From IMG/VR virus record IMGVR_UViG_3300006641_000209, positions 1 to 21,901 of that record: a stretch of DNA of 21,901 bases; one strand, 5' to 3'. Shown one piece after another: positions 1,248-20,055 of this stretch; within the stretch, counting starts at the first letter, position 1, and every line of letters starts with the position of its first letter. The stretch comes from a virus. Both the position numbers and the translations under genes were made by a program. The notes beneath the pieces were generated by a model that worked only from the letters and a program-made list of their open reading frames with translations, had not been told where the DNA came from and did not search any database.

Positions 1248-1456
1248 TGTGCTTCAGCGGTAGCGGCGGTCGTATGCCAGCCCCTTCTCCTCCCCCTCCG
1301 GCACAGCTTCCTCTGGCCCCACAGGTTGCTCCGCAGACCATGCAGATGCTCCAGAGCACTCCTGCCCGCGCCAGAATTGACCAGACCGGGTACAAGAAGA
1401 AGGGCAAGCGGGCTCTGACCATTCCTCAGTCTGGCACGAATGTGCCGGGGATGTGA
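1247..1456 (+). CDS. small Pro-rich virion-type protein, resembles T7 gp6.7
   Basis: A 69-residue protein that starts MCFS and continues as a Pro/Ala/Gln-rich low-complexity stretch (residues 10-40), then ends in a basic segment KKKGKRALTIP near residues 53-63. T7 gp6.7 also begins MCFS, is Pro-rich, and carries a GRKGLKV segment, and lies between gene 6 and gene 8; T7 gp6.7 and gp7.3 are small virion proteins ejected early in infection. The match is from memory and short, so a virion role is inference. The ATG at 1247 overlaps the previous stop and has GAGG at 1236-1239 in good position. The same frame is open upstream to 1139, but that part lies inside the previous gene. Confidence 0.7.
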   Translation: MCFSGSGGRMPAPSPPPPAQLPLAPQVAPQTMQMLQSTPARARIDQTGYKKKGKRALTIPQSGTNVPGM

Positions 1457-1458
1457 CC

Positions 1459-2988
1459 ATGCACACAGCAAAGTCGGCCTACAGCGAGATGGAGAATGGG
1501 CGGTACGCCTACCTACAGAGAGCGCGGGATTGCTCACGGCTGACTCTTCCCCACCTGATGACGGATGATGGAGACCAGTCCGCACAGCGTCTTCCGACCC
1601 CATATCAGTCGGTAGGTGCGCGTGGCGTGAATAATCTGGCTTCTGCCCTTCTCCTGTCACTCCTTCCACCGAACGCCCCGTTCTTTCGCTTCGTTCTTGA
1701 TGCGAAGGCTCAGAACAGGCTCATGGCCATGTCTCCAAACGCCAAGGCTGAGGTTGACGCCAGCCTGTCGGAGCTTGAGCGCCGTGTTCAGCGGGAGATC
1801 GAGTCTCAGGGAATCCGCAGCAACTTGTTCGAGGCCATCAAGCAGCTGATCGTCTGCGGCTCGGTTGTCCTGTACTTCCCCGACGATGGCCCCATGCGGG
1901 TGATCAAGCTGGACCGCTTCGTGGTCAAGCGTGACCCGATGGGCAACGCGAAGAAGATCATCATCAAGGAGACGGTTGCTCCAGCCGTTCTTCCCGAGGA
2001 GATCCAGCCCTTCGTCAAGTCCTGTATGTGCAACCATGACAACACGGTGGACATCTACACCTGTTGTCATCGCATGGGCGACCGTGTCGAGATCTACCAA
2101 GAGGTCGAGGGAGAGATCATCCCAGACTCCTACGGGACCTACCCGATTGAGCAGAGTCCGTTCCTAGCCCTGCGGATGAACCGCATCGACGGGGAGGACT
2201 ACGGTCGTTCCTATGTCGAGCAATACCTTGGCGACCTGATCTCTCTGGAGAGTCTGTCCAAGAGCATCGTGGAGGCCGCTGCGGCTTCCGCCAAGCTTCT
2301 CTTCCTCGTCAACCCGACCGGAACCACCCGTGCCAAGACTTTGGCTCAGGCGCCCAATGGAGCCATCCGGGAGGGCAATGCAGCCGATGTGACCGTGCTT
2401 CAGGCCAACAAGGGAGCCGATCTTCAGGTCGCCCTAGCCACGGCTCAGGGGATCTCGGAGCGCCTGAGCTACGCCTTCCTGCTGACCGAGGCGACCATCA
2501 GGAACGCAGACCGCGTCACCGCCGAGGAAGTCCGTCTGGTCACCCAAAGCATCGAGCGCCAGCTGGGAGGCATCTACTCCATCCTCTCTCAGGAGTTCCA
2601 GCTTCCGCTCGTTGGCCGTGTCATCGACCGCCTGACCAAGAGCAAGAGGATGCCGAAGCTTCCCAAGGACTTCGTCACGCCTACGATTGTGACGGGAATC
2701 GACGCCCTTGGACGAGGCAACGACCTCAACAGGCTCGACATCTACCTTCAGGGCATCGGTCAGATCCTTGGTCCTCAGATGATCCAGCAGTACATCGATG
2801 TCCGCGAATATCTCAACAGACGCGCTGCTTCTCTTGGAATCGAAACGGCGGGTCTGGTAAAGTCCGAAGAGCAGCTCCAGATCGAGCAGCAGCAAGCCAT
2901 GCAGATGCAGCTTCTTGCACAGCATGGAAACCAAGCCATGGCCGAGGGAGGTAAGATCCTACAGGCCAACATGAAGAACGCACGATGA
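1459..2988 (+). CDS. head-tail connector (portal) protein, T7 gp8-like
   Basis: The dodecameric connector at the capsid vertex, through which DNA is packaged and ejected and to which the tail tube attaches. At 509 residues it matches the family (T7 gp8 has 536). Visible signatures are an N-terminal helix with SAYSEMENGRYAYLQRAR, the TPYQSVGARGVNNLASALL segment at about residues 47-66 followed by LLPPNAPFF, a long middle with the ITEATIRNADRVTAEEVR-type helix (here LLTEATIRNADRVTAEEVR), and a Gln-rich C-terminus at about 468-500. ATG at 1459 is chosen: GGGG at 1447-1450 lies 8 bases before it. An in-frame GTG at 1453 overlaps the previous stop but is only 2 bases from the Shine-Dalgarno sequence. 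The end overlaps the scaffold start (ATGA). Confidence 0.96.
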   Translation: MHTAKSAYSEMENGRYAYLQRARDCSRLTLPHLMTDDGDQSAQRLPTPYQSVGARGVNNLASALLLSLLPPNAPFFRFVLDAKAQNRLMAMSPNAKAEVDASLSELERRVQREIESQGIRSNLFEAIKQLIVCGSVVLYFPDDGPMRVIKLDRFVVKRDPMGNAKKIIIKETVAPAVLPEEIQPFVKSCMCNHDNTVDIYTCCHRMGDRVEIYQEVEGEIIPDSYGTYPIEQSPFLALRMNRIDGEDYGRSYVEQYLGDLISLESLSKSIVEAAAASAKLLFLVNPTGTTRAKTLAQAPNGAIREGNAADVTVLQANKGADLQVALATAQGISERLSYAFLLTEATIRNADRVTAEEVRLVTQSIERQLGGIYSILSQEFQLPLVGRVIDRLTKSKRMPKLPKDFVTPTIVTGIDALGRGNDLNRLDIYLQGIGQILGPQMIQQYIDVREYLNRRAASLGIETAGLVKSEEQLQIEQQQAMQMQLLAQHGNQAMAEGGKILQANMKNAR

Positions 2989-3743
2989 GCAACCACCAGT
3001 CAATCACCATCACGAAGGAAAATCCTCCCGATACCGCCATGGAACAGGCGATTCAGGCAGAGCAGCAGGAAGTTCAGGATCCCGCTCAGGCATCCGATGA
3101 GCGTCCTAACTGGCTTCCCGAGAAGTTCAAGTCCCCTGAGGATCTAGCCAAGGCATACTCCGAGCTGGAAAAGCGTTTCTCTACCCCTGCGGAGAAGCCC
3201 AAGACGATCCCTCAAGCCGAAGCGGCTCCTCAGGGGACCCTGAACTTTGACGAGTTCTCCAAGGAGTATTCCGAGAATGGAACCCTGAGTGAGGAGAGCA
3301 TCGCCAAGCTTTCCGCCAACGGCATCCCGGAGAATGTGGTCCGCAACTACCTCGATGGACTCAACGCCATCACGGAGAAGCAGACCCAGCAGATCTACTC
3401 GATTGCCGGAGGAGAGGACAAGTACAACTCCATGCTGGAGTGGGCTTCAGAGTCTCTGGAGGAGAACGAGATCGAGGCTTTCAACAACATCATGGAGCAG
3501 GGAAATCCAGCAGCCATGCAGATGGCCGTCCGTGGACTTCAGGCCCGCTTCTCCCAAAGCTCTGGATCCCCGGCCAAGCTCATCCAAGGAGACACCATCG
3601 GGCCTTCCGGTGGAGCGTTCCGAAGCGTAGCGGAGCTCACCGCAGCCATGAAGGATCCCCGTTACCACAAGGATCCGGCGTATCGACGCGATGTCGAGAA
3701 CCGTCTCAAGAACAGCAACATCCTCACCACCACTTCCCGATAA
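2985..3743 (+). CDS. capsid scaffolding (assembly) protein, T7 gp9-like
   Basis: An internal scaffold that directs procapsid assembly and leaves before maturation. It is 252 residues (T7 gp9 has 307), acidic and rich in Glu, Gln, Ala and Ser. The N-terminal half carries the PNWLPEKFKSPEDLAKAY motif at residues 41-58, typical of scaffolds of this group, then a charged helix. The middle is helical (EESIAKLSANGIPENVV; EYIAGG-like region with IAGGEDKYN). The C-terminal helix DPRYHKDPAYRRDVENRL at about 224-241 is the part that in this family contacts the capsid protein. It sits directly after the connector with a 4-base ATGA overlap. The capsid gene does not follow immediately as in T7; about 640 bases of extra small genes and leader intervene. 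Confidence 0.93.
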   Translation: MSNHQSITITKENPPDTAMEQAIQAEQQEVQDPAQASDERPNWLPEKFKSPEDLAKAYSELEKRFSTPAEKPKTIPQAEAAPQGTLNFDEFSKEYSENGTLSEESIAKLSANGIPENVVRNYLDGLNAITEKQTQQIYSIAGGEDKYNSMLEWASESLEENEIEAFNNIMEQGNPAAMQMAVRGLQARFSQSSGSPAKLIQGDTIGPSGGAFRSVAELTAAMKDPRYHKDPAYRRDVENRLKNSNILTTTSR

Positions 3744-3752
3744 GGAGCACAG

Positions 3753-3950
3753 ATGAAGTCTTGGAAGACCACAGTGACAGGAATCGCGGCAGTCCTGACC
3801 GCAGTCGGGGCCGCTCTCACCGCACTCTTCGACAACGACCCGAATACCACGCTCGATGTCGCCGTGACGGCAAGCGCAATCATGGCGGGAATCGGCTTGA
3901 TCTTCGCTCGGGACAACAATGTCTCCAGCGAGGACGCGGGGGCCAAGTGA
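3753..3950 (+). CDS. small two-helix membrane protein, possible holin
   Basis: A 65-residue protein with two predicted membrane helices, at about residues 7-26 (Ala/Thr/Val-rich) and 35-52, joined by a short polar turn FDNDPNTTLD and followed by a charged tail ARDNNVSSEDAGAK. Its size, the two helices and a position beside a probable lipoprotein gene fit a class II holin, but a two-helix shape alone does not prove this. Small proteins ending GIGLIFARD-type followed by a charged tail are frequent in phages and usually left unnamed. AAGGAG at 3742-3747 lies 5 bases before the ATG. The TGA stop overlaps the GTG of the next gene (GTGA) and is directly followed by another ATG at 3951. Confidence 0.75.
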   Translation: MKSWKTTVTGIAAVLTAVGAALTALFDNDPNTTLDVAVTASAIMAGIGLIFARDNNVSSEDAGAK

Positions 3951-4189
3951 ATGGGATCCTCAAGGCGATCATCCTTGGGATTCTTGAGTCGCTTGTACGG
4001 GCTTACCAGTTCTCACGCACTGCACTTTCTGCTGATCGGGATCCTGTTCTGCTTCGTCGTGCTGGTTCTCGGATCCGCAAGTGGGTGCAGCAGAGCCGTG
4101 TTCATCCCGGAGGCAAGCCCGATCAGGGTGGGCCCGAACTGCAAGACCAAGGTCTACCTCCTGATCAACGGCGAGTGGACACTCAGTGA
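3947..4189 (+). CDS. small protein of unknown function, overlaps lipoprotein gene in another frame
   Basis: An 80-residue reading frame starting at a GTG that overlaps the preceding stop (GTGA). The first 50 residues look like a true protein: an N-terminal amphipathic or hydrophobic helix, MNGILKAIILGILESLVRAY, then SADRDPVLLRRAGSRIRKWVQQSR. Codon use over the first 70 bases or so is ordinary for this genome in this frame (atc, ctc, aag, gcg, atc), and worse in the alternative frame. The last 30 residues are polar and probably only a readout of the other gene. GGGGG at 3938-3942 could serve as its Shine-Dalgarno sequence. It overlaps the 3951-4277 gene for 239 bases. The function is unknown; an inner-membrane partner of the lipoprotein is one possibility, but no long membrane helix is seen. 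Confidence 0.55.
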   Translation: MNGILKAIILGILESLVRAYQFSRTALSADRDPVLLRRAGSRIRKWVQQSRVHPGGKPDQGGPELQDQGLPPDQRRVDTQ

Positions 4190-4277
4190 CAACAGTGTGG
4201 TCATTCCCGAAGGCTGGTACTGCGTACCTCCCCGCTTCGTTGATGAAGACGAGTCTAAGGAAGTTTCACCTTCTTGA
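3951..4277 (+). CDS. probable lipoprotein / single-pass membrane protein, spanin-like candidate
   Basis: A 108-residue protein with a hydrophobic helix at residues 25-41 (HFLLIGILFCFVVLVLG) followed by SASGC, which resembles a lipobox with Cys46 as the acylation site; alanine at -3 is not the preferred residue. The exported part is compact and ends in the pattern NGEWTLSDNSVVIPEGWYCVPP. From memory, short lipoproteins ending 'PEGWY.VPP' are common in phages. Next to a possible holin this suggests an outer-membrane spanin, but it lacks the strongly Pro-rich make-up of Rz1, so that is only a hypothesis. The ATG at 3951 immediately follows the previous stop. The first 24 residues have poor codon use and mirror the overlapping frame, so the true start may be later. 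Confidence 0.75.
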   Translation: MGSSRRSSLGFLSRLYGLTSSHALHFLLIGILFCFVVLVLGSASGCSRAVFIPEASPIRVGPNCKTKVYLLINGEWTLSDNSVVIPEGWYCVPPRFVDEDESKEVSPS

Positions 4278-4385: not shown

Positions 4386-5489
4386 ATGCCCATTCAGACT
4401 ACTCCGTCTCGTCTTGGTCAGGTCAATCTGGCTGGTGACGCAGACTCCCTCTTCCTCAAGGTCTTCAGCGGCGAGATCATCTCGGTCTTCGAGGAAGCAA
4501 ACCTCATGCTCCCGCTGACCAAGGTCCGCACCATCAGCAGCGGAAAGTCCGCGACTTTCGCAGTCACTGGCGTTGCCAGCGCGGCCTACCACACCCCCGG
4601 CGAATCCGTTCTCACCACGGGTGCTAGCACTGGCTACCTCGGAGCATCGGCGGCAACCTTTGCAACTGGTACGGCAACCGACACTGGCTCGGCCAAGTAC
4701 CTGTCCCGCATGAGGCACAACGAGAAGGTCATCTTCATCGATGATGTCCTCATCAGCTCCTGCTTCGTTGCCGACATCGATGAGCTGAAGAACCACTACG
4801 ATGTCCGCTCGACCTACTCGAAGGAGATTGGTCGTGCTCTTGCCTACGCGGCTGACAAGAACCTGATCCGCACGGTCATCGCTGGTGCTCGTCGGGCTAC
4901 TGATCGCTTTGGCGGCACTTCGGCCACCTTCCTTGGCTCCAAGCTGGATATTGCCGCATCGACCGCCGCAACTTCCGCCGAGCTCATCGCTGGCCTCTTC
5001 CAAGCCGCTCAGAAGATGGATGAGAAGAATGTCCCGGCTGACGGTCGCGTTGCGATCTTCAACCCGGCCAACTACTACCGTCTTGTTCAGGGCGATGGCA
5101 CTGCGGTTGGTATTGCCATCAACAAGGACTACGGTGGCGCTGGAAGCCTTGCGTCCGGTACGGTCGTGGAAGTCGCTGGAATCAAGGTCCTGAAGTCGAA
5201 CCACATTCCGAGCACCGACGAGAGCTCGACCCCAGATGCTCTTGCGGGCGCTTCTGGCGTCAAGAACGATGTCAGTGGAACCGCTAATGATGGTTACTCG
5301 GGCTACAACTACGCCAACACCATCGGCATTGCGTTCCATTCGGATGCGGTCGGCACGGTCAAGCTCATGGATCTCTCGGTCGAGAGCGAGTACATCATGG
5401 AGCGTCTCGGCACCCTCATGCTGGCGAAGTACGCGATGGGCCACAATGTCCTTCGCGAGGAGGCTTGCATCGAGTTCGTCACCGCGTAA
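4386..5489 (+). CDS. major capsid protein, T7 gp10A-like
   Basis: The HK97-fold shell protein of the head. It has 367 residues (T7 gp10A has about 345). Matching segments are SLFLKVFSGEI (21-31), VRTISSGKSATF (47-58) with AAYHTPGES (67-74), HNEKVIFIDDVLISS (111-125), IDELKNHYDVRS (131-142) with ALAYAADKN (151-159), and the C-terminal AVGTVKLMDLSVE and LAKYAMGH. Compared with T7 there is an extra Gly/Ala/Thr/Ser-rich stretch at about 75-106, just before the KVI strand. The start is the ATG after AGGA at 4372-4375. The gene stands alone between a leader and a terminator, which fits separate, strong expression. I see no slippery sequence for a T7-style 10B frameshift at its end. Confidence 0.97.
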   Translation: MPIQTTPSRLGQVNLAGDADSLFLKVFSGEIISVFEEANLMLPLTKVRTISSGKSATFAVTGVASAAYHTPGESVLTTGASTGYLGASAATFATGTATDTGSAKYLSRMRHNEKVIFIDDVLISSCFVADIDELKNHYDVRSTYSKEIGRALAYAADKNLIRTVIAGARRATDRFGGTSATFLGSKLDIAASTAATSAELIAGLFQAAQKMDEKNVPADGRVAIFNPANYYRLVQGDGTAVGIAINKDYGGAGSLASGTVVEVAGIKVLKSNHIPSTDESSTPDALAGASGVKNDVSGTANDGYSGYNYANTIGIAFHSDAVGTVKLMDLSVESEYIMERLGTLMLAKYAMGHNVLREEACIEFVTA

Positions 5490-19564: not shown

Positions 19565-19849
19565 ATGCCAAACCTCCTGAATCCAGACATGACGGTGGCT
19601 GCCTTTAACGAACAGCAGACGCCCATCGGATCCATCGTCGTTTACACAGGATCGACCAATCCGCCCAAGGGATGGCTCTGGTGCAACGGCTCCAGCTATA
19701 GCCAAGTGACCTATGCGGCCCTGTTCGCCGTGCTGGGGACTCACTTTGGATCCGGTGGTGCTGGAACCTTCAATGTTCCCACGATCTCCGATCTTGGTGG
19801 AAACGCCCGGTTGCGCTACATGATCAAGGCGCTGAGGTACGACCCGTGA
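19565..19849 (+). CDS. stand-alone phage tail-collar domain protein
   Basis: A 94-residue protein that is essentially one tail-collar (Phage_collar type) domain. The pattern is clear: TPIGSIVVYTGSTNPPKGWL at about residues 19-38, WCNGSSYSQVTYAALFAVLG and HFGSGGAGTFNVPTISD. In larger fibres this domain is found near the tip, for example in T4 gp12 and lambdoid side-tail fibres; here it is separate, with a short N-terminal tail and a C-terminal RLRYMIKALRYDP in place of further shaft. It may assemble on the fibre or act as its own small receptor-binding piece. AAGGA at 19551-19555 precedes the ATG by 9 bases. The stop overlaps the next start (GTGA). Confidence 0.88.
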   Translation: MPNLLNPDMTVAAFNEQQTPIGSIVVYTGSTNPPKGWLWCNGSSYSQVTYAALFAVLGTHFGSGGAGTFNVPTISDLGGNARLRYMIKALRYDP

Positions 19850-20055
19850 CCGAGGAAGTCCTGATTGCCCTAGGACGGCTTGAGGGCAAGGTGGACGCGA
19901 TGATGACATCGCTCCGCATCCAAGAGGAAGAGCTGAGAATTCTGGAGAACCGGATCAGGGATCTTGAGCAGAGCAGGGCTTGGATGCTCGGCGCTGCCGC
20001 GATCATCTCCATCATCGCCGGGTTCATCGTCAAAGTAATCCCAATGAAAGGCTAG
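19846..20055 (+). CDS. coiled-coil plus C-terminal membrane helix protein, XhlA-like
   Basis: A 69-residue protein with an N-terminal charged helix, residues 3-43, in heptad-like order (LEGKVDAMMTSLRIQEEELR, ILENRIRDLE), followed by a single membrane helix at about 46-65 (WMLGAAAIISIIAGFIVKVI). This layout is that of the haemolysin XhlA family of phage proteins, which accompany holins in cell lysis. The resemblance is structural and I cannot confirm family membership. GTG at 19846 overlaps the preceding stop (GTGA), and GAGG at 19834-19837 lies 8 bases upstream, so it is translated together with the collar gene. If it is a lysis protein it is a second one, far from that at 3753. Confidence 0.75.
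   Translation: MTEEVLIALGRLEGKVDAMMTSLRIQEEELRILENRIRDLEQSRAWMLGAAAIISIIAGFIVKVIPMKG

Follow-up and report, generated by a model that had tools for sequence, protein, structure and literature searches.

Two genes that overlap by 239 nt in different frames, here termed A and B, probably constitute an undescribed two-gene spanin-like lysis pair that matches no known spanin family. They are encoded on an IMG/VR fragment of T7-like phage DNA, which comprises 21.9 kb (21,901 nt) and is referred to as the window in the following. In this window the pair is situated downstream of the scaffold gene and of a gene for a 65-aa membrane protein and is followed by the gene for the major capsid protein (Table 1). 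A sequence-only reading of the same DNA had proposed two genes in two frames at this site. Both open reading frames were found exactly where it had placed them, B being in the +1 frame relative to A, and the constraint acting on both frames indicates that both are genuine.

Table 1 Features of the A/B locus and its surroundings in the window. The table indicates the feature, the position in the window, the strand and further characteristics.
Feature	Position	Strand	Characteristics
Portal	1453-2988		
Scaffold	2985-3743		
Small membrane protein	3753..3950	+	65 aa; holin-like in size and in having two predicted hydrophobic segments; adjacent to A on the upstream side
Gene A	3947..4189	+	GTG start; 80 aa; hydrophobic helix (residues 2-27), Arg-rich helix (33-51), unconserved tail
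Gene B	3951..4277	+	ATG start; predicted 108-aa lipoprotein with conserved mature domain
A/B overlap	3951-4189	+	239 nt
Probable B start ATG	3951..3953	+	4 nt after the A start codon
Doubly constrained stretch	4026..4100	+	SADRDPVLLRRAGSRIRKW helix of A together with signal peptide and lipobox of B; both reshuffle directions significant
CTG in place of the B start ATG of relatives	4029..4031	+	19 codons before the Cys; conserved Asp-Ala-Asp motif of A
Lipobox of B (A-S-G-C)	4077..4088	+	Cys codon 4086-4088; Ser at +2; Gly-Cys invariant in 32 rows
C-terminal tail of A	4090..4186	+	frame open; A-frame conservation absent
B mature domain	4140..4232	+	predicted beta-hairpin and IPEGWYCVPP motif; pLDDT about 67-79 here
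Major capsid protein	4386-5489		

The coding capacity of both frames was assessed with a synonymous-reshuffle test across 31 lineages, in which the codons of B were shuffled synonymously and A was scored, followed by the reverse. Related sequences share descent and the z-scores, which ignore phylogeny, are inflated as a consequence; only diverged pairs were used, namely 368 pairs in which the identity of B was below 65% (close pairs excluded). A was more similar than the level imposed by B, with z = 20 for codons −44 to −22 before the lipobox Cys and z = 38 for codons −21 to +1, and no stop codon was observed in the A frame compared to about 31 expected. In the reverse direction, the similarity of B exceeded the level imposed by A at −21 to +1 (z = 20) and at +2 to +50 (z = 14–20). 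The third frame gave no signal upstream and a smaller signal in the doubly constrained middle. Within the window clade, divergence per codon between 3953 and 4021 was 0.45 at position 3 of A and 0.03 at position 2 of A, and between 4085 and 4186 it was 0.00–0.02 at position 2 of B and 0.19–0.25 at position 3 of B. Substitutions fall on third positions of A until base 4084 and on third positions of B from base 4085, and the point at which the constraint switches is the lipobox Cys codon of B (4086). The stop of A varies from +11 to +128 nt past this Cys among relatives, and the tail of A beyond about 4090 is shadow.

These results confirm, to within a few bases, the earlier partition of the overlap into a stretch ruled by A, a stretch around 4026–4100 ruled by both and a later stretch ruled by B, as the reshuffle z-scores and the codon-position pattern agree with it. 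The partition needs one correction, in that the A frame shows no conservation after about 4090. Among the relatives, we found neither the retention of a single frame nor a frame that was free at its synonymous sites, the two observations that had been named as evidence for a shadow frame. That only one frame is coding and the other is its shadow is extremely improbable: the tail of A past the Cys is truly shadow and the B frame contains stops upstream of an internal start in four of the 31 lineages (L019, L055, L065 and L092), but the two-way reshuffle and the codon-position pattern speak against it, and it is ruled out for the part of A up to base 4090 and, in B, from the signal peptide onward.

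In the viral contig collection, a direct search with B as query returned 18 loci, a first B profile 212 loci and a broader B profile 382 loci, while a profile built from A only returned 172 loci; the best 80 loci of each profile search were retained. B overlapped A in the same phase in all of the best 80 of the 172 A-seeded loci. Here, an automatic scan detected B in most of the loci; the five that it missed (L125, L132, L133, L148 and L150) were read directly, except for L133, in which B was known from a separate B search (L219). Both frames are open among relatives representing about 30–60 non-redundant lineages, and the phase is always identical. Genes of two-component spanins are embedded, overlapped or adjacent, and a +1 overlap was present at every locus examined here. 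Furthermore, the pair was detected on two bacterial MAG contigs (Alphaproteobacteria, Rhodobacteraceae). The length of A among relatives ranges from 54 to 88 aa, and its consensus comprises M..RI, a hydrophobic stretch and WL.RR......AVDAD.D...LRRAG.RIREW. The consensus of B comprises a signal helix followed by FASGC and by a mature domain, the end of which is IPEGWYCVPPSFV; in the window, the pattern of the mature domain is GCSRAV..PE.SPIR.GP...VY.L..GEW.LS.N.V.IPEGWYCVPP.FV.

Two positions can be distinguished for the start of B. Where residue 2 of A is Asn or Tyr, its codon ends in T and is followed by G, which creates the ATG of B, in 24 out of 24 non-identical loci, and nearly all of these loci otherwise use the T-ending codon in a minority of cases. 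In many relatives, the start ATG of B is instead found 19 codons before the Cys, within the Asp-Ala-Asp motif of A. The window reads CTG CTG ATC at 4029–4037 compared to ATG CTG AT at the B start of these relatives. The two options tend toward mutual exclusion (Fisher p = 0.006, not corrected for phylogeny), in that the alternative ATG near −19 tends to be absent from lineages with an ATG near the A start. Depletion of stops in the B frame upstream of the internal start was dropped as evidence for the upstream ATG, because stops are also depleted in lineages that do not have this ATG (13 compared to 67 expected). The TGA of the upstream gene (3948–3950) overlaps the GTG of A and directly precedes the ATG of B (arrangement AAGTGAATG). 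Such an arrangement suggests that the restarts of the two genes are coupled, with translation of A and B probably resuming at the upstream stop codon.

Based on the conserved lipobox and signal helix, B is a predicted lipoprotein, which bears out the proposal that the locus encodes an envelope pair. The lipoprotein signal expected of an o-spanin is present, with the invariant Gly-Cys and a hydrophobic signal helix, and residue +2 is Ser, Thr, Asn, Gly or Ala and not Asp. A six-frame lipoprotein scan, which recovers T7 gp18.7 and lambda Rz1, revealed no candidate other than B in the window or in the related contigs G001 (42 kb), G003 (42.5 kb) and G004 (41 kb, of which 40 kb were read). In G005 and G011, B was one of two or three candidates, the others being encoded on the opposite strand, and in G002 the scan missed B, the lipobox of which (VLGC) is outside the scan pattern. 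AlphaFold predicted a signal helix and a beta-hairpin for B (mean pLDDT 68). The best structural match was the 83-aa BFVD entry A0A516LV47 (Foldseek E 3.6e-4, 33% identity), with low TM-scores (0.29–0.36), so that the match rests on local similarity. Sequence and fold searches of the PDB with B gave no match. Mature B of the window contains two cysteines beyond the lipobox, and in about 10 of the 31 lineages both A and B are devoid of periplasmic cysteines. Among known spanin pairs, a periplasmic cysteine beyond the lipobox is present in 505 of 526 and absent in 21 (PMC6139136, Table 7).

For A, AlphaFold predicted two helices (residues 2–27 and 33–51) and a loose tail (mean pLDDT 68), and a sequence search of the PDB gave no match. 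On a rough hydrophobicity scale, the first helix qualifies only marginally as a transmembrane segment, and it falls within the range of T7 gp18.5 and 17.5 for some lineages only. Positive charge is located C-terminal of this helix in 31 of 31 lineages, which is the reverse of the N-in/C-out preference of i-spanins. The net charge of the C-terminal part of A ranges from −3 to +8 across lineages.

As the sequence-only reading had noted, neither protein resembles known spanins closely: no Rz-like spanin family was matched at E < 0.05 by A or B. Searches of Pfam, PHROGs and NCBIfam with A and B of the window gave nothing significant, and the best matches to Rz-like spanins in PHROGs (E 0.08–0.24) may reflect the signal peptide only. 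A tblastn search of 50,697 isolate phage records with A and B of the window, two B relatives and consensus A and B gave chance-level matches or none, and no previous account of a pair of this kind was found in the literature searched. Similarity to a spanin family is not strictly required, given that the known spanins already fall into 125 distinct o-spanin and 143 distinct i-spanin families (PMC6139136). Known pairs comprise 62–300 periplasmic residues (PMC6139136), and the combined length of A and B is within this range.

Of 122 non-identical loci, 108 have a small hydrophobic ORF directly next to A. Most of these ORFs belong to two types, each with the size of a holin (the T7 holin 17.5 has 67 aa). 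Holin-like refers here to size and hydrophobicity only, and no family match in Pfam, PHROGs or NCBIfam names them holin. In the T7-like relative G003, the genes follow the order tail fibre, coiled-coil membrane protein, small membrane protein, A/B, TerS, an extra ORF and TerL; TerS matches phrog_1351 (6.7e-7) and TerL was also confirmed. ORFs of the same sequence occur in the same order in G017 and G019. Other carriers have tape-measure genes near the pair (L048), which implies that the cassette is not confined to a single kind of tailed phage. Searches of carrier records, which may be incomplete, revealed no recognised Rz (PF03245, phrog_13). In 20 carrier records, which may likewise be incomplete, Amidase_2 (PF01510) was found in none and Phage_lysozyme (PF00959) in one. 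This lysozyme ORF (L272:5085-5930 in G020; PF00959, 1.1e-18) lies on the strand opposite to the pair at a distance of about 1.4 kb, and no endolysin directly beside the pair was found in the carriers searched. A neighbourhood of holin and endolysin genes is usual, not obligatory, for two-component spanins.

Several further genes in the window and in the carriers were observed. At 19846–20055 of the window, after the tail-fibre gene, a 69-aa protein with an N-terminal coiled coil and a C-terminal membrane helix is encoded. It weakly matches XhlA/holin families (phrog_5225, 1.1e-5; phrog_689, 8e-4) and represents a second lysis candidate in the window. In about seven of the 31 lineages, a small protein with a hydrophobic N-terminus and a coiled coil is encoded upstream of the pair (L055:1036-1299, L087:1644-1913, L090:2484-2756 and similar), one member of which weakly matches the Rz-like spanin family phrog_13 (E 0.0068). 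Furthermore, secreted proteins with PEP-CTERM-like or dockerin-like C-termini are encoded near the pair at L274:2702-3397, L097:19352-19999 and L273:1987-2751, which may indicate Planctomycetota-type hosts.

The reading of A and B as a spanin-like pair draws on the dual-frame constraint, the constant association of A with B, the lipobox, the adjacent hydrophobic ORF and the T7-like gene order. The +1 phase, the combined length of A and B, the distance from ATG to Cys as in T7 gp18.7 and the lack of a recognised Rz in the carrier records searched also speak for it. The role in lysis itself is suggested by B as sole lipoprotein candidate, the adjacent membrane genes and the partial T7-like synteny. 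The lipoprotein precursor of B would be processed at Cys46 by cleavage and lipidation, and the mature protein would then be delivered to the outer membrane, in its inner leaflet, while A would be anchored at the inner membrane through its N-terminal hydrophobic helix. The holin-like upstream membrane protein and an endolysin would act first, and contact between A and B across the periplasm could then disrupt or fuse the outer membrane. Counted against this reading are the charge and the helix of A, the cysteines, the lack of a family match and of a holin annotation, the location between scaffold and capsid genes, the lack of an adjacent endolysin in the carriers searched and the presence, in some carriers, of another N-terminal-hydrophobic coiled-coil protein beside the pair. 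The pair departs from known spanins in the charge distribution and topology of A, in the cysteines missing in about a third of the lineages and in the absence of a sequence match. Proteins of other topology might act as spanins according to the survey of known pairs (PMC6139136).

It is conceivable, though doubtful, that A is not an i-spanin and that the outer membrane is disrupted by a route that requires no type II inner-membrane partner, such as the joint action of an amphipathic helical protein and an outer-membrane lipoprotein. If so, the pair would represent a third kind of outer-membrane disruptor; in the window clade, a single stop codon would serve the starts of both genes, which are four bases apart and in different frames.

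The topology of A, which looks wrong for an i-spanin, would also fit an arrangement in which B is a true o-spanin-like lipoprotein with another partner, such as the neighbouring coiled-coil protein, and A has a different function, for instance in holin regulation. This is unlikely: the subset of carriers with the hydrophobic coiled-coil protein just upstream, including the member with the phrog_13 match, is in line with it, but such a protein is found beside the pair in few lineages only, and A accompanies B with the overlap retained at every locus examined. Phage lipoproteins can serve exclusion, and the pair could modify the envelope before lysis, for example in superinfection exclusion via a surface lipoprotein, instead of being a lysis device. 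The position of the window genes in the late structural region with no endolysin beside them would be compatible with this. We regard it as quite unlikely, as the pair recurs after small holin-like membrane genes and some carriers hold it near TerS and TerL, as in T7. Disruptins are small cationic membrane-active lysis peptides that act independently of lipoproteins, and A, a short helical protein that is rich in Arg and has mostly positive charge towards its C-terminus, might attack the outer membrane in a similar way as a cationic amphipathic peptide, with B as helper or anchor. However, the wide range of the C-terminal net charge means that a strong cationic character of A is not conserved, and A invariably accompanies B, which makes this explanation very unlikely.

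If the spanin-like reading is correct, the pair would supply outer-membrane disruption for several uncultured kinds of phage that annotation would call spanin-less; about 13% of the surveyed phages have no identified spanin (PMC6139136). The broader B profile matched its 382 loci, yet the isolate phage records gave no significant match. The overlap is intact in every lineage sampled and provides a clean case in which the signal helix of B and the second helix of A are encoded by the same bases and the switch in constraint is visible to the codon.

The spanin pairs of lambda, T7 and P2 overlap in the +1 phase (PMC6139136). B is in the same phase relative to A, in agreement with the Rz/Rz1-like overlap suggested earlier. 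With lambda Rz/Rz1, the pair would share the combination of an inner-membrane protein and an outer-membrane lipoprotein in two frames. Rz1 is Pro-rich and wholly nested, in contrast to B with its predicted beta-hairpin and IPEGWYCVPP motif, and the hhalign probability is about 2%. P2 LysB/LysC resembles A/B in architecture, with a +1 overlap and a lipoprotein gene that outruns the first gene (PMC6139136, PMC9636201), whereas the genes of the window clade start 4 nt apart. Compared to T7, where gp18.7 is wholly nested in the 143-aa gp18.5, B extends past A, A is shorter with a marginal membrane helix, TerS is located on the other side of the pair, the window pair lies between scaffold and capsid genes and there is no sequence similarity (hhalign probability 1–4%). 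Nevertheless, as in gp18.5/gp18.7, an o-spanin-like lipoprotein gene is placed in the +1 frame of an upstream gene, and the Cys follows the ATG by about 45–48 codons in both cases (48 in gp18.7). Some T7-like carriers hold the pair between small membrane genes and TerL, beside TerS, and the order in T7 (tail fibre, holin, TerS, 18.5/18.7, TerL) is close to that of G003.
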